This document shows, piece by piece, positions 19,620-32,107 of a stretch of 64,000 bases of DNA. Numbering within the stretch: position 1 is the stretch's first letter; the number at the start of each line of letters is the position of its first letter. Under the pieces are notes generated by a model. It ran no database searches. It worked only from the letters and a program-made list of their open reading frames with translations, and had not been told where the DNA came from. The translations under genes and the position numbers were made by a program. Origin of the DNA: Fischerella thermalis PCC 7521 (GTDB lineage: Bacteria > Cyanobacteriota > Cyanobacteriia > Cyanobacteriales > Nostocaceae); assembly GCF_000317225.1 (NCBI RefSeq), contig NZ_AJLL01000005.1, positions 186,001 through 250,000 on the forward strand, given 5' to 3'.

Positions 19620-20702
19620 CTATCCATGAATTGCAGGAGCGTTCATCGCTACAGGTACAGCTTCACCACTTGCCAAGTCTAATGGGAAGTTGTGAGCATT
19701 ACGCTCGTGCATCACTTCCATACCCAGGTTAGCACGGTTGAGTATATCTGCCCAGGTGTTAACTATGCGACCGTGAGAGTCAAGAATTGATTGGTTAAAG
19801 TTGAACCCATTCAAGTTAAACGCCATTGTGCTGATACCCAAAGCCGTGAACCAAATACAAACTACGGGCCAAGCTGCTAAGAAAAAGTGCAAAGAACGAG
19901 AGTTGTTAAAGCTGGCGTATTGCCAAATTAAGCGTCCGAAGTAACCATGAGCAGCCACGATATTGTAGGTTTCCTGCTCTTGTCCAAATTTATATCCATA
20001 GTTAACGGATTCATTCTCTGTGGTTTCCCTTACCAAGGAGGAAGTCACCAAAGAGCCGTGCATCGCACAGAAAAGCGAACCACCAAACACCCCAGCCACA
20101 CCAAGTTGATGGAAGGGATGCATGAGAATGTTATGTTCCGCTTGGAACACAAGCATGAAATTAAATGTACCACTTATGCCTAGAGGCATTCCGTCAGAGA
20201 AACTGCCTTGCCCAATTGGATAAATCAAAAAGACAGAGGTAGCAGCAGCTACAGGAGCAGAATAAGCAACGCAGATCCAAGGACGCATACCCAAGCGATA
20301 GCTCAGTTCCCATTGTCGTCCCATCCAGCAGAAAATACCGATGAGGAAATGGAAAACAATTAGCTCGTAGGGACCACCGTTATAGAGCCATTCATCAAGA
20401 GAAGATGCTTCCCAAATAGGGTAAAAGTGCAAGCCAATCGCATTAGATGTAGGTACAATGGCACCAGAAATTATGTTGTTGCCATATAACAAAGAACCAG
20501 AAACAGGTTCACGAATACCGTCAATATCGACTGGTGGTGCGGCAATGAAGGCAATAATAAAACAGATAGTTGCTGTCAACAGCGTTGGAATCATTAAAAC
20601 GCCGAACCAGCCAATGTAAAGTCTATTATTGGTGCTGGTAATCCACTCACAGAACCTATCCCAGAGACTACCACTTTCGCCTCTTGTTAAAGTTGTGGTC
20701 AT
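19620..20702 (-). CDS. psbA: Photosystem II D1 protein (divergent isoform)
   Basis: A 360-residue D1 reaction-centre protein from MTTTL at 20702; the longer frame to 20753 adds 17 non-family residues. Tyr161, D170, E189, H332, E333, D342 and the processing site A344 are all present, so oxygen evolution chemistry should be intact. Position 130 is Gln. Compared with the neighbouring copy it has W126 for Tyr, W260 for Phe and C282 for Gly, plus many N-terminal changes. It keeps G80, C144, F158 and T286, so it is not the microaerobic D1' type. A leader hairpin and a strong terminator flank it. It is probably a condition-specific isoform. Confidence 0.95.
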
Positions 20703-20741
20703 GGCTGTATTTATTTCAAAATTCAATGAACGTACAGATGA

Positions 20742-20774
20742 CAAATTTCTCATTTTTTGAGATTGAGAAATTTG
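20742..20774 (-). promoter_or_regulatory. Hairpin in psbA leader (first copy)
   Basis: An 11-bp perfect inverted repeat, CAAATTTCTCA (20742-20752) with TGAGAAATTTG (20764-20774), lies 40-72 bases before the psbA start. A second pair, TGGGTGAT (20791-20798) and ATCACCCA (20841-20848), sits further upstream. The first may act as an mRNA-stability or light-control hairpin; this is inferred from place and shape only. Confidence 0.55.
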
Positions 20775-22411: not shown

Positions 22412-23494
22412 TTAACCGTTGATCGCAGGAGCAGTCAATGCAACAGGAGCAACATCGCCACTAGCTAAGTCGAGGGGGAAGTTGTGAGCATTACGCTCGT
22501 GCATCACTTCCATACCCAAGTTAGCGCGGTTGATGATGTCTGCCCAAGTGTTGATCACGCGACCCTGAGAGTCAATCACTGACTGGTTGAAGTTGAAACC
22601 ATTCAGGTTGAACGCCATGGTGCTGATTCCCAGGGCGGTGAACCAGATACCTACTACAGGCCAAGCAGCCAAGAAGAAGTGCAAGCTGCGAGAGTTGTTG
22701 AAGGAAGCGTATTGGAAGATTAAGCGACCGAAGTAACCGTGGGCTGCAACGATGTTGTAGGTTTCTTCTTCTTGACCGAACTTGTAACCGTAGTTCTGAG
22801 ATTCGGTTTCGGTTGTTTCGCGAACCAAGGAAGAAGTTACCAAAGAACCGTGCATTGCGCAGAACAAGCTGCCACCGAACACACCTGCTACACCTAGCTG
22901 GTGGAAGGGGTGCATCAAGATGTTGTGCTCTGCTTGGAACACGATCATGAAGTTGAAGGTTCCAGAGATTCCCAAGGGCATTCCATCAGAGAAGGAACCT
23001 TGACCCAAGGGGTAAATCAAGAATACTGCGGTAGCAGATGCCAAAGGAGCAGAATAAGCTACGCAGATCCAAGGACGCATTCCTAAGCGGTAGGACAATT
23101 CCCACTGACGGCCCATGTAGCAGAAGCAGCCAATCAGGAAGTGGAAAATTACCAACTGGTAAGGACCACCGTTGTACAACCACTCATCTAAGGAAGCAGC
23201 TTCCCAGATGGGGTAGAAGTGTAAACCAATGGCATTAGATGAAGGTACAACAGCACCGGAGATGATGTTGTTTCCGTAGAGTAAGGAACCTGCTACTGGT
23301 TCACGGATACCATCGATGTCTACGGGGGGTGCGGCGATGAAGGCGATGATGAAGCAGGTGGTTGCAGCCAACAGTGTTGGAATCATCAATACGCCGAACC
23401 AACCGATGTATAGGCGGTTTTCGGTGCTTGTGACCCAATCGCAGAACCGTTCCCATACGTTGCCGCTTGCGCGTCTTTGTAAGGTTGTAGTCAT
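22412..23494 (-). CDS. psbA: Photosystem II D1 protein (standard isoform)
   Basis: A 360-residue D1 protein beginning [20 protein letters not shown] and ending [23 protein letters not shown]126, Q130, Y161, D170, E189, F260, S264, H272, G282, H332, E333, D342 and A344 are present. It matches the common cyanobacterial D1 more closely than its neighbour does. Q130 is the form often linked with lower-light D1 variants. Codons are highly biased to C-ending forms in NNY sets, typical of highly expressed genes, whereas the other copy is less biased. It is probably the main housekeeping psbA of the pair. Confidence 0.97.
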
Positions 23495-23815: not shown

Positions 23816-25315
23816 TTAAAAATCAAAGTAAATATATGGCAAACTACCTTCTGGAGCTAGTATCCAGACAGCGTAGAAGCAGGGAAGTACGAACAAGAGT
23901 TTGACAGGCCAGTTGAACTGTAACTTTAATTGACGATGGAAAAAATAAGCTAAAGTCATACAGGTAGCAATTACGCCTAAGAGTATTGCTAATTGATATT
24001 GACTAATATTGAGTGCTTCCACATAAACTTTTTGAGCAAATTGAGCATCAGCAGGATAACCCCAAAGGTGTTTAAATACTGAAGAAGAATCTTGGAGATT
24101 TGGTAGACGAAACCAAATCCAAGAGATGAAAACCATTAGTTGTGTAAATAACCAAGCTACCAGTTTACCGAAGGGATTGTGCCAAAAATGTTCTAACTCC
24201 TCAAAGCGATCGCTAAGAGCATTAGTTAATCTGTGGATAACTAATGCTAGACCGTGAAACGCACCCCAAATTACAAAACCTAATGCTGCACCATGCCAAA
24301 TACCCGCAATTACCATCACAATCATTAAATTGAAGCAGGTGCGAATTAAACCCTGACGAGACCCTCCCAAAGGAAAATAAATGTAATTACGCAACCAATC
24401 TCCTAGTGTTATGTGCCAGCGTCGCCAAAAATCAGCAATACTGGTACTGAAATAAGGAAAGTCAAAATTTTCTGGTAGAACTAAACCGAAAAGTAAAGCA
24501 GTGCCACGGGCAATATCTACATAACCACTAAAATCTAAATACAACTGAAAACCATAGGCAAATATTGCCAACCATAAATCAGTACTACCCGCCCGTTGCA
24601 AATTGCCGAAACACAAATCAACATAAATTCCCAAGTGATCAGCTAGAATACCTTTTTTGACAGTTCCTTGGGCAATTAACCAAATACCTTCCGCAAAAAG
24701 ATTGGGAGTAGGAAAGCGCAAGTGATTGAATTGATGAGTGAGGTTGTGGAAGCGAGTAATGGGGCCAGAAATCAATTTAGCAAAGAATAATTTGTATGAT
24801 GCAAATTGAATAAATTGATTACTAGCAGGTGCGCCACGGTAGACATCGACTAAATAGGAAATACACTCAAATGTAAAAAATGAAATTCCTAGAGGCGCAA
24901 TTAATTTAAAAGAATCAAATACTGAACTTATAGAAGTATGATAGGTAAAGTTATATAAAGGTGGTATATATTTAAAACCCAAAAGTAGCAACACATTTAT
25001 GCTGACACCCAACCATAATAGTTTTAAACGCTGACTATTCCAATCGGCTTGAGATAACTGCGATTCTTCATCAAAAGATCGCAGTTCTAAAGAATTTTGA
25101 TTTGGTGAATTATGTTTACCTAGAGCTATTCCTATGCGGAAATTACAATAAGTTAGTGCTAGTAAAAGCGGGATATAATAAATTTGCAAAGATGCGTAAA
25201 AGCCAATACTAGCAATCAATAGCGTCCACATTCGTAGTTTTTGTTGCGCTATTAACCAGTAAATCAAAAGCACACTCAATAAAAATATTCCGTATAAAAT
25301 TGATATGAAGTTCAT
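23816..25315 (-). CDS. MBOAT-family O-acyltransferase (AlgI/DltB-like)
   Basis: Polytopic membrane protein of about 499 residues from MNFISILYG at 25315; the frame to 25366 is spacer repeat. Family core: FFTFECISYLVDVYRG, GPITRF, LDFSGYVDIARGTALLFG, FWRRWHITLGDWLRNYIYFPLGG and the catalytic histidine in GIWHGAALGF. Such proteins move acetyl (or other acyl) groups across the membrane to an extracellular partner that modifies polysaccharide. The gene directly upstream on the same strand encodes a membrane-anchored SGNH-like protein, the expected partner. The spacer is 83 bases. It is therefore probably an exopolysaccharide O-acetylation system; the polymer is unknown. Confidence 0.9.
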   Translation of the reverse strand: MNFISILYGIFLLSVLLIYWLIAQQKLRMWTLLIASIGFYASLQIYYIPLLLALTYCNFRIGIALGKHNSPNQNSLELRSFDEESQLSQADWNSQRLKLLWLGVSINVLLLLGFKYIPPLYNFTYHTSISSVFDSFKLIAPLGISFFTFECISYLVDVYRGAPASNQFIQFASYKLFFAKLISGPITRFHNLTHQFNHLRFPTPNLFAEGIWLIAQGTVKKGILADHLGIYVDLCFGNLQRAGSTDLWLAIFAYGFQLYLDFSGYVDIARGTALLFGLVLPENFDFPYFSTSIADFWRRWHITLGDWLRNYIYFPLGGSRQGLIRTCFNLMIVMVIAGIWHGAALGFVIWGAFHGLALVIHRLTNALSDRFEELEHFWHNPFGKLVAWLFTQLMVFISWIWFRLPNLQDSSSVFKHLWGYPADAQFAQKVYVEALNISQYQLAILLGVIATCMTLAYFFHRQLKLQFNWPVKLLFVLPCFYAVWILAPEGSLPYIYFDF

Positions 25316-25398
25316 GCAAATAGTCAATTGGTAATGGGTAACTGGTAATTGGTTATGATTTACCACTAACTACTATTCACTAGCCAATATCCAATAAC

Positions 25399-28356
25399 CT
25401 ATTTGGTCGGCCAAGGAATCATTGGATCAATAGCAAGTTTTTTGGAAACTTTTTCTGCACCATAAAGATTTAGATGGCTGGGGTCAGAAAAGTTTTCGTT
25501 GGCTTGGGGCCAAATTAAGCTCAAATCCCGATAGATTAAATTGGAATTTTCAGCTAAGCGTAACATATATTGCTGAAAATCTTGTTCGTATTTTTTTCGT
25601 ACTGCATCAAGATATTCTGCACTCAAGGGCATATTCACAAATACTATAGTAATTTTTGTGGATGCACAAAATTGCAATACTGCTTGGAGAGCAGCGTCTT
25701 GCTCACCCCCTAATTGGAAAGATTTATAGTCATTGTCATAGCTACCATTAACCTTGGGGTGTTTTTGATAGTATGTAGCTGGATTAAAACGGATAGGTAT
25801 TGCTAAAAATCCGTCAAAATCAACTGCTTGTTCAAAAACATCCTGTTCTGGGTCTGCTGATGTAATTTTTTGATTAACTGCTGATTTACCTCTGAGTAAA
25901 GGTAAAGACTTCAGTGTTTTGTTGAGTAAACTCTTAAGTTGATTTCGTTGATTATAGGTAGTAGAAATAGTTGCGAGAGCTTGGTTTAACCTTGCATCTA
26001 ATGCTTGAGAATTATTATCTGTATGAGTTGTGTTTTTAAAGCTTTGCTCCCGTTTTATCGATGCTGAGGTGGTGTTTGAATTCTGAGAATTTTCGTTGGC
26101 TGGTGCTTTTTGTAATACTTGTTGATAACCAGGAGATGCTGCGATCGCTTTAAAGGTGACATCCTCTCTACCATTGTTAAAAGCACGCGCACCATCAGCC
26201 CAAATAATCAATTTTGGTAGTTCTGATGGTTGTAGCACTCGACGCAGGATAAAATCGACAACTTGTGCTGTCGCTCCATTAATCCCAAAATTAAACACAT
26301 CGATATCTGAGTAACCCTGAGTTGCCAAAGCTTGAGAAAGTGTGGTGGGATCTATTCCTCTCAAAGCGCGAGAAGAACCAATAATTAATACATCTGGTGG
26401 TTTACCGTTTTTCGCAAGACGTTGTTTGTAGAGTGCTAGTTGCTCATCTAATTGACGAGCGTTGAAACTTGGCATTGGCGATCGCGCTGCCAATAAAATA
26501 GCAGTTGCAGTTGCTTTTCCCCTAGTGATGGATTCTTCTTTTTGGGTGAATCCAGAAGCATTAAACACCTGATTTTTAGATGCAGGCGATGTATTGGTAA
26601 AAAAAACAGTTCTTTCCAACCTTTGATTTTGTTCTTCAGCTGAAGATAATTGAGGTCGGGTACTAGCAATCTTTGGTGTTTCTGGGATGGAGTGAGAAGT
26701 TATATAGCCCAAAATCCAGTCTGATTGCAGAGTCAGCAAAAACCCCAACAAGCCCCAAACTAAAGCCACCCGCCAGCCATTTTCTTCTACCTGTTGTTCT
26801 TGTGACTGTTCCTTTTCAGCAAACAGCTGCGTTGCTAAAAGCCATCTTCTGATTCTTGCACCCCAGTCCTGAGCCACTTCTACAAAAATACTCTGTACAT
26901 CTTGGCTGGTTAAATCGGGACGTAGTACAGGCTCGTTAGCTTCAGGTGTTAAAAGTTCACCAACATAAGCAGCAGTGGCGGCAAATTCAGGAGTCGGTTC
27001 TGGTACTAGACGTTGACGATTGATAAAATCGACCCCGTAGTGCCAAAAAGGTTCCTTGTTACCCGCACGGCGACCATAGACTCGTACGCCTGCAATTCCT
27101 ACTATTTTTAACTGTCTGACAAACTGAGTAACTTTACTTGCTACCTGTTTGCGTGAAGGACACACAAGTGCTTCGCACATGATGTGTAATAGATCGCCTT
27201 TACGTAACAAGAGGACGCGAGTTCCACCTGTTTTGAGGCGAGTATCTATGTCGGGGTTGAGCAAGCGCTCAAGTAAGAAAATGATAGCAGGTTCATCTCC
27301 AGCTGAGGATAATTCTAACGCTGATACTGCTAAATCTGGGTGTTCTGTTGCAGGTAATGATTGCCAATCAATCCAAGCGGGTTCGTGATCGATTGTTTGG
27401 TGTCCGTAAACTGTGGCGGCGAGAATACCTTGGGGAGCAAGGGCTTGAAGTTGGGGCATAATTGCCTGTAAGCACTGAGTTTTATCGGGAATTTGCTCAG
27501 TTGCCTTGGGGTCAGCAGCACTGCAAAATATATGTAGTGTAGATTCTTTGAGAGTTGCTGTGACTTTGATTGCCAGATCAGACAGTCTTTCATTTAAAAT
27601 CCTGGCGATCGCTTGTAAATCTCCCCAACGCGCCCATTCTTTCAGCATGATTTCTGGAGGCGTCAGATCCACTCTTAGCATCCAGTCAAAATCTGTTTCG
27701 CCATCCACTTGTGTGGCGATCACTGCATCTTGATAACCAGAAAGCTTGAGACTGCGTAACTTCTGAGCTACTGGTTCTGCAATTAATGAAGGATCGGGAG
27801 TATAGCTAGACTGACAGTAAATCAACAAGCGATTTTGATTGCTGGGATTTTCGAGAGTCGGTTGTTGCTTTTTGGCTTTGACTTCCACCCCTATCCCAAA
27901 GGTACTAAGACTTTCACTCAAATAGCGAGCGATCGCATTTGGATCGCCTTTACGTGCCAAACTTTCATTAGAAAGAATTAGCGCCCCACCCGTGCGACTG
28001 GATTTTTCCGCATCTGCGATCAAGGCTTGCTCCACCTGTTGTAGGTGCAAATCCAACTGGTTTAAGAAAACCTGATGACACCACTGCGGGCGATTTTCCC
28101 CCTTTTTCCGACCGTAGACGAAAACTTGGTAGATTGAAGGTTGTTCATTTTTGGTCAGAGCGTCCAAGTCAGTGTGCTGTAGCGCGTGCAGCAAATCCAC
28201 AAGAGTACGCCAACGTTGGGGACACTCTGGACTTTCGCAAAGAATGTGCAGATCATTTCCCCGCAATCGGACTTTCACACCTAAAGAGCTGATTCCTGTT
28301 GCTTGGCTTACCCATTGTATTAAGGACTTTTGACTAACTGGTAATGCTATTTTCAT
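25399..28356 (-). CDS. DUF1574 protein: four N-terminal repeats, membrane segment, SGNH-like domain
   Basis: A 985-residue protein from MKIALPVSQKSL at 28356; the frame to 28434 adds only repeat-coded residues. Residues ~1-510 hold four diverged copies of one ~120-residue unit. Each has a 'LHI.CE/CQ' strand and a 'VYGR..G...P.W' strand (VFVYGRKKGENRPQWCHQ, ATVYGHQTIDHEPAWIDW, VRVYGRRAGNKEPFWHYG). A transmembrane helix follows near 550 (WRVALVWGLLGFLLTLQ). The C-terminal third is SGNH-like: IIGSSRALRGIDP, IIWADGARAFNNG and DPSHLNLYG. It resembles AlgX/AlgJ-type acetyltransferase partners and lies just before the MBOAT gene. The role of the repeats is unknown. Confidence 0.85.
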   Translation of the reverse strand: MKIALPVSQKSLIQWVSQATGISSLGVKVRLRGNDLHILCESPECPQRWRTLVDLLHALQHTDLDALTKNEQPSIYQVFVYGRKKGENRPQWCHQVFLNQLDLHLQQVEQALIADAEKSSRTGGALILSNESLARKGDPNAIARYLSESLSTFGIGVEVKAKKQQPTLENPSNQNRLLIYCQSSYTPDPSLIAEPVAQKLRSLKLSGYQDAVIATQVDGETDFDWMLRVDLTPPEIMLKEWARWGDLQAIARILNERLSDLAIKVTATLKESTLHIFCSAADPKATEQIPDKTQCLQAIMPQLQALAPQGILAATVYGHQTIDHEPAWIDWQSLPATEHPDLAVSALELSSAGDEPAIIFLLERLLNPDIDTRLKTGGTRVLLLRKGDLLHIMCEALVCPSRKQVASKVTQFVRQLKIVGIAGVRVYGRRAGNKEPFWHYGVDFINRQRLVPEPTPEFAATAAYVGELLTPEANEPVLRPDLTSQDVQSIFVEVAQDWGARIRRWLLATQLFAEKEQSQEQQVEENGWRVALVWGLLGFLLTLQSDWILGYITSHSIPETPKIASTRPQLSSAEEQNQRLERTVFFTNTSPASKNQVFNASGFTQKEESITRGKATATAILLAARSPMPSFNARQLDEQLALYKQRLAKNGKPPDVLIIGSSRALRGIDPTTLSQALATQGYSDIDVFNFGINGATAQVVDFILRRVLQPSELPKLIIWADGARAFNNGREDVTFKAIAASPGYQQVLQKAPANENSQNSNTTSASIKREQSFKNTTHTDNNSQALDARLNQALATISTTYNQRNQLKSLLNKTLKSLPLLRGKSAVNQKITSADPEQDVFEQAVDFDGFLAIPIRFNPATYYQKHPKVNGSYDNDYKSFQLGGEQDAALQAVLQFCASTKITIVFVNMPLSAEYLDAVRKKYEQDFQQYMLRLAENSNLIYRDLSLIWPQANENFSDPSHLNLYGAEKVSKKLAIDPMIPWPTK

Positions 28357-29044: not shown

Positions 29045-32000
29045 ATGAGTTCTCTTTTATACTTTTTCGCTCAGGAAGTGAACATCTACCCCGCCTCAGA
29101 TTTATTTTTGCGCCATCGACTACAAATAGTAGAAGAATTGTGGGAGTCCGTGCTGCGGCAAGAATGCGGTCAAAAAATGGTCGATCTTTTACGGCAGTTA
29201 CGTGATTTATGCTCACCAGAAGGACAAGCGACTCTTGACCAAGCTTCCTCCGTATTTAAATTAATAGAGCAATTAAATATCAACGAAGCTATTCGTGCGG
29301 CTCGTGCTTTTGCATTGTACTTCCAGCTGATCAACATCATCGAGCAGGACTACGAACAACGGCAGCAAATGACTCGCTATGAGGCGTCAGGTGAACCAGG
29401 AACCCAGGAAATAGCAAACACATCCTCGACAAATTCTGAAGCCAGCAGCGGATTAGGGGCAGAATTGCTCAGCAAAAGTTGGCAAGCCAATCCCCATCGC
29501 AAACGCCAAGACACTTTCGCAGCCCTATTTCCCCAGTTATACCAGCTAAATGTACCACCCCAGCAAATTCAACGCCTTATTTCCCAATTGGATGTGCAAT
29601 TAGTCTTCACTGCTCATCCCACAGAAATTGTTCGTCATACCATCCGCGATAAACAGCGACGAGTAGTAAAACTACTGCAACAACTTGATGTTGCAGAAAA
29701 ACGTGTAGAAAATCCTGATTATGCTTGGGAAGTGGCAGAACTACGGGAACAATTAATCCAAGAAATTCGCCTCTGGTGGCGTACCGATGAATTGCACCAG
29801 TTCAAACCTTCTGTACTTGATGAAGTAGACTATGCTCTGCATTACTTCCAAGAAGTGTTATTTGATGCTATCCCCCAACTTTACAAACGCTTCAAATATG
29901 CTTTAGCTAATACTTTTCCCTGGTTAGAACCACCAAGTAAGAACTTTTGTAAGTTTGGCTCTTGGGTAGGTGCAGACAGGGATGGAAACCCATCAGTCAC
30001 CCCAGAAATCACCTGGCAGACTGCCTGTTATCAGCGCAAAATAGTTTTAGAAAGATACATTCAGTCAGTGAAGCGGCTAATTAATTTGTTGAGTGTGTCG
30101 CTGCATTGGAGTGATGTCTTACCAGACTTACTAGAATCATTAGAAATAGACCAGTCCCAGTTGAGTGAAGTCTACGACGAATTAGCTTTACGTTATCGTC
30201 AAGAACCCTATCGGCTCAAAATGTCCTATGTGCTGAAGCGACTGGAAAATACACGCGATCGCAACTTGGCTTTATACAATCGCGAAACACCAAAAACTGA
30301 AGTTCCTATTTATCGCTCTGGAGAAGAATTTTTAGCTGAACTACGGTTAATTGAACGTAACTTAGCAGAAACAGGATTAAATTGCCAGGAACTGGAAAAT
30401 CTGATCTGCCAAGTCGAAATTTTTGGCTTTAATTTGACTTGTTTAGATATCCGACAAGAATCAAGCCGTCACTCGGATGCTTTAAATGAGATTTTGGAAT
30501 ACTTTGGAATTTTAAAGTGTTCCTACAATGAACTAACAGAAGCAGAAAAAGTTGCTTGGTTAGTAGGAGAATTGCAAACTCGCCGCCCGTTAATTCCCGC
30601 CGAACTACCTTTTTCACCAAAAACCAATGATATTATCGAAACTATGCGGGTAGTGCGATCGCTACAACGAGAATTTGGTAATAATATTTGCAAAACTTAC
30701 ATTATCAGTATGTGTCGCCAAGTCAGCGACGTACTAGAAGTATTGCTATTTGCTAAAGAAGCAGGACTTTACGATCCTGGTACAGCAGTAGGTACGATCC
30801 AAGTAGTTCCCCTATTTGAAACAGTGGAAGACTTGCAACGCTCTAAGAGTGTGATGCAACAGCTGTTTGAATTGCCTTTGTATCGCGCCTTGTTGGCTGG
30901 AGGCTACGCTGCAATTCAAGGAGACAGACAGGGGACTGGCGATAGGGAAAATGTCTCCCCTCCTCCAACTTCCTCCACCTCTTTTTCTTATCCCCTGACT
31001 CCCAACCTCCAAGAAGTTATGTTGGGGTACTCTGACAGTAATAAAGACTCTGGCTTTTTAAGCAGCAACTGGGAGATTCACAAAGCTCAAAAAACTTTAC
31101 AGCGAATAGCTGAAGAACATGGGGTGACTTTGCGGATTTTCCACGGGCGTGGCGGTTCTGTTGGACGTGGTGGTGGCCCGGCTTATGAGGCAATTTTGGC
31201 ACAGCCTGGTCACAGTATCAATGGGCGCATCAAAATTACTGAACAAGGGGAAGTCTTAGCTTCTAAGTATTCCTTGCGTGATTTAGCACTGTACCATTTG
31301 GAAACAATGACTACAGCTGTCATTCAAGCCAGCTTATTGAAAACAGGGTTTGATGATATTGAACCTTGGAATGAAATCATGGAAGAATTAGCAGTGCGAT
31401 CGCGTACTCATTATCGTTCCCTGATCTACGAACAACCAGATTTTATCGACTTCTTCCACCAAGTTACACCGATTGAGGAAATTAGCCTCTTACAAATTAG
31501 TTCTCGTCCAGCCCGTCGTCCTTCTGGTAAAAAAGATTTAAGCAGTTTGCGAGCGATTCCTTGGGTATTTAGCTGGACACAAACACGGTTCTTGCTCCCT
31601 TCTTGGTACGGTGTTGGCACAGCTTTGCAAGAGTTTTTAAATGAAGAACCAGAAGAAAATTTGCAATTACTGCGCTATTTCTATATGAAATGGCCCTTCT
31701 TCAAGATGGTAATTTCCAAAGCAGAAATGACTTTGGCAAAAGTAGACTTGCAAATGGCGCGGCGCTATGTTGAAGAGTTGTCTAATCCTGAGGATAAACC
31801 CCGTTTTGAGAAACTATTTGCACAAATCGCCAGCGAATACTATCTCACACGGGAATTAGTACTCAAAATTACTGAACACCAACGGCTTTTAGATGGCGAT
31901 CCTGTCTTGCAGCGATCAGTACAGTTACGCAATGGTACAATTGTACCCTTGGGCTTTATTCAGGTTTCCCTGCTGAAGCGCCTACGCCAGTCGAAGAATA

Positions 32001-32107
32001 TAGCCACATCTGGAGTGATTCACTCACGATATAGTAAAGGCGAACTGCTGCGCGGCGCACTGTTAACAATTAATGGTATTGCTGCTGGTATGAGAAATAC
32101 GGGTTGA
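29045..32107 (+). CDS. ppc: Phosphoenolpyruvate carboxylase
   Basis: Fixes bicarbonate onto phosphoenolpyruvate to give oxaloacetate, the main anaplerotic step in cyanobacteria. 1020 residues. Active-site motifs are present: [51 protein letters not shown] and a C-terminal [10 protein letters not shown]. About 28 residues (630-657, [20 protein letters not shown] and following) lie just before the conserved [18 protein letters not shown]. They are coded by a G-rich/C-rich repeat like those between genes. The insert is in frame and close to the catalytic region, yet all motifs survive. Confidence 0.97.

Follow-up and report, generated by a model that had tools for sequence, protein, structure and literature searches.

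A probable cyanobacterial envelope acyltransferase pairs an MBOAT with an SGNH protein carrying four copies of an unnamed domain

The closest described relatives of the system considered here divide the labour between an MBOAT and an SGNH protein. In PatA/PatB the MBOAT has an invariant histidine and a C-terminal motif, FXYXXF, which carries the acetyl group on its tyrosine, and in PatB a membrane anchor and then a disordered linker precede the SGNH domain with its Ser-Asp-His residues, as described in the available part of one account (PMC12148441). The same division is found in AlgI/AlgJ/AlgX, where AlgJ and AlgX are circularly permuted with the order H-S-G-N, and the accessible text of the 2022 review that states this lists DUF1574 as an SGNH family with no known activity or structure (PMC9487903). 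DltB and DltD of the Dlt system, which handles carrier-borne D-alanine, form a third comparison. Here we analyse a 64,000-nucleotide stretch of the genome of Fischerella thermalis PCC 7521 (the window; contig NZ_AJLL01000005.1, positions 186,001 to 250,000, from an assembly of 5.4 Mb in 140 contigs) which encodes a DUF1574 protein, P0001, with four tandem copies of an unnamed module at its N-terminus and an MBOAT gene directly after it. We consider it probable that the two make up an acyltransferase of the MBOAT-SGNH kind, conserved in cyanobacteria and acting in the cell envelope, whose modules would form an array in the cytosol and serve docking or control. The catalytic half of this proposal is well supported by the anatomy of the predicted proteins. 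The MBOAT-SGNH kind is already known; what is new is the array of an unnamed, probably cytosolic domain. The parts of the pair are:

25399 to 28356, minus strand: P0001 (985 aa), four modules, membrane helix and SGNH (DUF1574) domain
28045 to 28335, minus strand: module M1, residues 8-104
27655 to 27957, minus strand: module M2, residues 134-234
27331 to 27633, minus strand: module M3, residues 242-342
27013 to 27309, minus strand: module M4, residues 350-448
26713 to 26769, minus strand: probable single membrane helix, residues 530-548, hydropathy (KD19) 1.54, marginal
25411 to 26472, minus strand: SGNH/DUF1574 domain, residues 629-982
26365 to 26379, minus strand: block I, GSSRA, residues 660-664
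25474 to 25485, minus strand: catalytic Asp958-x-x-His961 (DPSH)
23816 to 25366, minus strand: MBOAT gene, 516 aa from GTG
24293 to 24295, minus strand: MBOAT His358 (GIWHG), invariant in 84 of 84 rows
23819 to 23836, minus strand: MBOAT C-terminal YIYFDF, close to the acyl-shuttle motif FXYXXF

The C-terminal domain of P0001 matches DUF1574 (PF07611) at 36.3 bits against a cut-off of 29.1, over residues 637-962, with the array outside the match. Residue conservation was counted in 81 of the 110 rows of the family alignment; L063-L091 were set aside because their 3' ends are missing and at least one of them repeats a named genome. Rows stand for sequences rather than independent events. GSSR (660-663) is invariant in all 81, and the aspartate and histidine of DPSH are found in 80, with one gap. 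We take Ser662 to be the nucleophile by analogy with GDS(L). With the serine first and D-x-x-H last, the domain follows the canonical SGNH order. The initial annotation had made P0001 the SGNH partner of an MBOAT with an AlgX/AlgJ-like C-terminus; the partnership is supported but the likeness fails in the defining feature of AlgX/AlgJ, and membership was rejected since Ser661/662 precedes D958-x-x-H961 instead of following the order H-S-G-N. Among the short SGNH paralogs, L155 gives a weak ALGX match (21.7 against 26.5 bits). The SGNH model aligns with known structures at Z scores of 11.1-13.4, where matches within one Z unit are tied and give the fold, not the family. DltD (7dxm; Z 13.0, 4.2 Å) has the longest aligned stretch among the structures listed, 238 residues, and PatB (7trr) aligns over 178 residues (Z 12.0, 3.5 Å). 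In the order of its blocks the domain is closer to DltD/PatB than to AlgX/AlgJ with their circular permutation.

Many of the matched structures are esterases, and the domain might accordingly remove acyl groups, either opposing the MBOAT or acting on another substrate. Gly691 and Gly694 are both invariant among the 81 rows, and block II, which we place at Gly694 from general knowledge of such domains and without a solved structure, would then carry a glycine as in hydrolases; this weighs against acyl transfer, and the Ser/Asn of PatB appears to be absent. PatB and OatA have Ser or Asn at block II, according to the text available to us (PMC12148441). Against deacylation stands the co-occurrence of the domain with an MBOAT that bears a shuttle motif, as well as the content of the window's genome, which has one MBOAT and one DUF1574 hit, so that no other DUF1574 protein is present there as acceptor. 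On balance we regard an esterase as unlikely.

The MBOAT of the acyltransferase that we favour matches PF03062 at 106 bits and shares with PatA both the invariant histidine and the C-terminal tyrosine motif; as in PatB, the Ser-Asp-His residues of P0001 come after a probable membrane helix and a disordered linker. The ending IYFDF is found in 80 of 83 MBOAT rows, the rest being IYFDY, IYFEF and one copy cut short, and Tyr513 is kept in 83 of 84; the first motif position is usually tyrosine in place of the phenylalanine of FXYXXF. By analogy with PatA/PatB, the MBOAT would take up an acyl group at the cytosolic side, acetyl from acetyl-CoA being the most likely one, and, with His358, would load it onto the tyrosine of YIYFDF at the periplasmic face, where the SGNH serine would accept it and pass it on to a polymer of the cell surface, for which exopolysaccharide is the probable candidate. 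On the opposite side of the single membrane helix, in the cytosol, would be the four modules.

The transferred group might instead come from a carrier, whether D-alanine as in the Dlt system or some other group. The DltB model gives the MBOAT 156 bits, and all PDB chains that its sequence matches are DltB-type; on the SGNH side there is the long alignment with DltD, and L149, a relative with two modules, scores above the Pfam cut-off for DltD (PF04914, 28.9 against 22.7 bits). However, the window's MBOAT misses the Dlt equivalog cut-offs and P0001 stays below both DltD models (TIGR04092, 12.8 of 150 bits; PF04914, 14.2 of 22.7). In the window's genome a search with positive controls from B. 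subtilis and L. lactis found no DltC match, and DltA gave none over the cut-off; the lack of a dltC match favours an acyl-CoA donor. Unlike DltB, the MBOAT also ends in a shuttle motif of its own, a feature of acyl-CoA users in the available part of the PatA/PatB account (PMC12148441). We therefore find a carrier-borne group highly improbable, and Dlt membership of P0001 was rejected on the cut-offs and the missing DltC, though L149 passes PF04914.

Of 386 cyanobacterial genomes, 84 contain the orthologous MBOAT at E <= 1e-100 and 84 the SGNH domain at E <= 1e-10; compared by eye, the two lists name the same 84 genomes, whether or not the two genes are adjacent. The N-terminal half of P0001 matches 88 genomes, nine of them weakly or partially, and a strong match (E <= 1e-50) is present in 79 of the 84 pair genomes, the others being G155, G193, G282, G346 and G039. 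Where the rows have enough downstream sequence, the MBOAT lies just downstream on the same strand in 61 of 76. An adjacent MBOAT is missing at 14 loci, and all 13 of the genomes searched for these encode an MBOAT elsewhere, at 53-65% identity. Among the genomes listed, all 43 of the window's family have the pair and the 20 unmatched ones all belong to other families, with 282 more unmatched genomes beyond the list. The closest named relatives of P0001, in Fischerella, Pelatocladus and Westiellopsis, are 85-95% identical to it.

Cyanobacterial exopolysaccharides bear ester-linked acetyl groups, and the accessible text of a 2015 survey of exopolysaccharide production names no enzyme that adds them (PMC4594306). 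That text reports the AlgF domain in none of the strains surveyed, and AlgI was not pursued there as Synechocystis 6803 had none (PMC4594306). Because the window's genome has a single MBOAT and the pair is present in 43 of the 43 listed genomes of the family, we consider it a good candidate for exopolysaccharide acetylation. It counts against this proposal that no acceptor-polymer gene was identified beside the pair.

The array is what sets P0001 apart from PatB, for which the available text describes no such four-module N-terminal extension (PMC12148441). The initial annotation had recognised in it four diverged copies of one module, and comparison of profiles bears this out, as all six pairs of M1-M4 are related at 95.1-98.7% probability (profiles of 35-59 sequences each, split from the alignment of 110 family rows). 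To avoid circularity, an independent profile was made from 20 module copies, none from P0001; it matches M1-M4 at 28.9, 30.2, 59.7 and 47.6 bits, and neither the reversed P0001 nor any of 1000 shuffles exceeds 7.6 bits. In the AlphaFold model of P0001 (alignment of 42 of 61 available rows; mean pLDDT 63.2, pTM 0.39, ten-residue blocks within modules at 53-89) the order helix-strand-strand-helix-strand-strand is predicted in each module, so that the four units appear to have a common fold. M3 modelled alone, with 55 of the 60 module references computed, again gives this order (pLDDT 82.5, pTM 0.74); because of long inserts or an uneven cut the modules M3 and M2 were omitted for L053 and L057, as was M1 for L058. 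Two details of the annotation need correction: the array was put at about 510 residues, and an extension is indeed present but about 525 residues precede the helix; and of the shared motif LHI.CE ... VYGR..G...P.W, the VYGR part is missing from M2, although the four copies are related.

Mean pairwise identity is 0.61-0.68 in the modules, 0.69-0.76 in the SGNH core and 0.35-0.58 in the linkers and insert, so the modules come close to the core in conservation. YGRRxG in M4 and several cysteines are nearly invariant among family rows: Cys181, Cys278 and Cys399 are kept in 79-80 of the 81 rows, Cys40 in 76, Cys45 in 72 and Cys394 in 58 (and in 2 of 21 divergent rows). The places of several correspond between modules, C40, C181 and C278 lying at the end of the second strand and C45 and C399 at the matching CP sites of M1 and M4. 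Ten rows with five hits represent split matches, of M2 in nine and of M3 in L109, and not five modules. Reduced forms exist and speak against the array as a fixed part of the enzyme, since they indicate that four modules are not essential everywhere: M1 is absent in L096 and L111, L129 (G155, an assembly of 1110 contigs) has M1 and M4 only, in G193, G282 and G346 one module was detected and a second seen by eye, and in G039 only a short SGNH protein and no array was found, with an assembly gap possible.

The annotation had proposed a search for the module elsewhere, and this shows that the observation was right and the module more general than a single sequence could show. A profile of 24 copies, including the four of P0001, finds it in 98 of the 386 cyanobacterial genomes (E <= 1e-5), so it is not unique to P0001; there are up to 13 matches per genome, a lower bound as at most 13 candidates were scored in each. 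The window's genome has two more module proteins, C35 (203-aa frame) and C89 (362-aa frame). A search of 72,556 plasmid records with a single module copy gave 2 matches, both cyanobacterial, the genomes of other phyla not having been searched. Pfam and NCBIfam hold no model that covers the module over its cut-off, and PHROGs gave no match; a few overlapping matches that stay below their cut-offs, such as PCuAC (L114, 18.3 against 29.4 bits) and ARMC9_ARM (L124, 14.8 against 27.3 bits), were rejected as chance. The best match to PDB sequences has E 0.093, and the module model has no clear counterpart in the PDB (best Z 7.4, with 4hlb over 85 residues; Foldseek E 0.12); matches as weak as these, from a predicted model, do not show the fold to be new. 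A literature search, judged by titles and abstract openings, found no description of the array or the module.

The proteins that share the module are diverse, though they were picked from match lists and not at random. The module is joined to a PrsW-type protease (L116), PGA_cap (L121), TPRs (L112), an EcsC-like protein (L113) and, in L125, Ig-like domains with an AAA_16/NB-ARC stretch below cut-off; by reading, WD40-like (L184) and pentapeptide-like (L186) repeats can be added. It is mostly N-terminal in the proteins examined and C-terminal in L183 and L187. Cyanobacteria thus appear, from the predicted proteins, to reuse this unnamed module in many membrane and cytosolic proteins, and learning its ligand would bear on all of them. 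In some genomes another module protein is encoded near the MBOAT of the pair: in five genomes of one genus (G039, G099, G203, G336, G354) a protein made of module, helix and helical domain is found within about 1-2 kb, and a module-helix protein sits some 3.6 kb from the MBOAT in G320, a sixth genome, which belongs to the same family. The six were picked because they were listed as close, and being related they may reflect one event. At one such place (L172, 1895-8769) the genes around the MBOAT encode, besides the module protein, a HATPase/SpoIIE protein, a rhodanese and a protein with both HATPase and HisKA; families were scanned in L172 only, and frames of similar size are seen in L173-L176.

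For the topology of P0001 the annotation had placed the repeats on the cytoplasmic side of one membrane helix. The evidence is indirect and part of it is contrary, but it leans this way and we regard the array as most likely cytosolic. By reading, there is no leader before M1. The mean number of cysteines is 7.9 before the helix and 0.27 after it, with none after in 63 of 81 rows, and module proteins L183, L185 and L187 have no hydrophobic peak. Seven short SGNH paralogs (434-547-aa frames) were read; under the lipobox rule a lipobox-like cysteine precedes the SGNH domain in L151, L152, L153 and L157, and L154 and L155 have a strong hydrophobic N-terminus, L156 being unclear. In six of the seven an unnamed helical domain of about 70 residues, which follows the helix in module-helix proteins, is found just before SGNH (for example residues 90-162 of L151 and 95-165 of L152; 47-68 bits with a profile of eight), and because of this recurrence module, helix and SGNH can be seen as one architecture.

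Several observations point the other way. The helix is weak: in 50 of 110 rows no segment exceeds 1.6, the SGNH core contains a stretch that scores about as high as the helix itself (KD19 1.56) and the model is poor at the helix (pLDDT 37-44). Lys/Arg residues beside the helix are distributed contrary to expectation, with a mean of 1.72 before and 2.0 after; row by row (n=50) there are more before in 14, equal numbers in 10 and fewer in 26. In two of the four lipobox-type paralogs, L151 and L153, no stretch of 19 residues scores over 1.5, and cysteines persist in the supposedly outside part of several short paralogs. The whole protein could on this account be extracytoplasmic or peripheral, with a predicted helix that does not cross the membrane. 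We consider this very unlikely given the missing leader, the Cys-rich modules, their presence in proteins without a hydrophobic peak and the lipobox-like or hydrophobic start ahead of SGNH in six of the seven short paralogs.

What is the role of a cytosolic array then? Docking or control is the most likely one, though conjectural: the non-catalytic modules may dock or control the complex by partner binding, oligomerisation or regulatory input. Signal-controlled acetylation, as the annotation suggested, is a hypothesis within this range, and the wide distribution of the module makes a dedicated sensor less likely and a general domain for docking or control more so. A simpler possibility, to which we give distinctly less weight, is an ordinary MBOAT-SGNH acyltransferase in which the array is structural and serves assembly only, through anchoring or oligomerisation and without regulation. 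The module's many unrelated architectures agree with this, and reading its sequence revealed no catalytic site. The best matches of its model, moreover, are common alpha-beta-beta-alpha-beta arrangements including RBM2 of FliF, a ring-forming domain. The order of helices and strands is indeed similar to that of ring-building motif and KH-like domains, but the match to FliF RBM2 (Z 6.4, 76 residues, 3.2 Å) is tied with unrelated folds, Z scores below 8 may reflect only a common arrangement, and such a resemblance of a predicted model is not evidence of membership. The near-invariant YGRRxG of M4 and the conserved cysteines also exceed what a passive spacer would need.

Beyond docking or control in general, the module could be a cytosolic control domain such that the four-module array gates acyl export to the surface from inside, a specific form of the idea that we rate as improbable. 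The conserved cysteines at matching places make thiol redox, and hence the photosynthetic light state, a possible input to the array. If the array does regulate acylation, it would provide inside-the-cell control of an outside-the-cell modification, and we know of no such control in the characterised MBOAT-SGNH pairs.

The gene boundaries and surroundings of the pair were also examined. P0001 starts with ATG, from which most relatives align at residue 1 and a few at residue 11-12; an alternative TTG would extend the frame to 28434 and add 26 residues. The likely start of the MBOAT is not the GTG but the ATG at 25315 (residue 18), as most homologues align from residue 16-18. A scan for promoters and terminators gave no signal (9 found against 12.5 in shuffles, and 5 against 4.2, respectively). 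In Richelia intracellularis (L046, 5995-8940) the array gene is spread over three frames and is either broken or misassembled. On the other side of P0001 lies a divergent gene:

29045 to 32107, plus strand: ppc (phosphoenolpyruvate carboxylase), conserved in position, not claimed as part of the machine

We take this gene to be ppc from the look of its sequence, with no family search. A ppc-like gene stands divergently upstream of the array gene in 71 of the 78 family rows with 2 kb of upstream sequence, or at 69 of 76 loci when the three L046 rows are counted as fragments, and it is kept even where the MBOAT sits elsewhere. Downstream of the pair are two genes of the photosynthetic reaction-centre type, both on the minus strand, at 19620-20753 and 22412-23494, which we presume to be psbA-type from their sequences; the second was assigned by reading only and the first is confirmed as Photo_RC.

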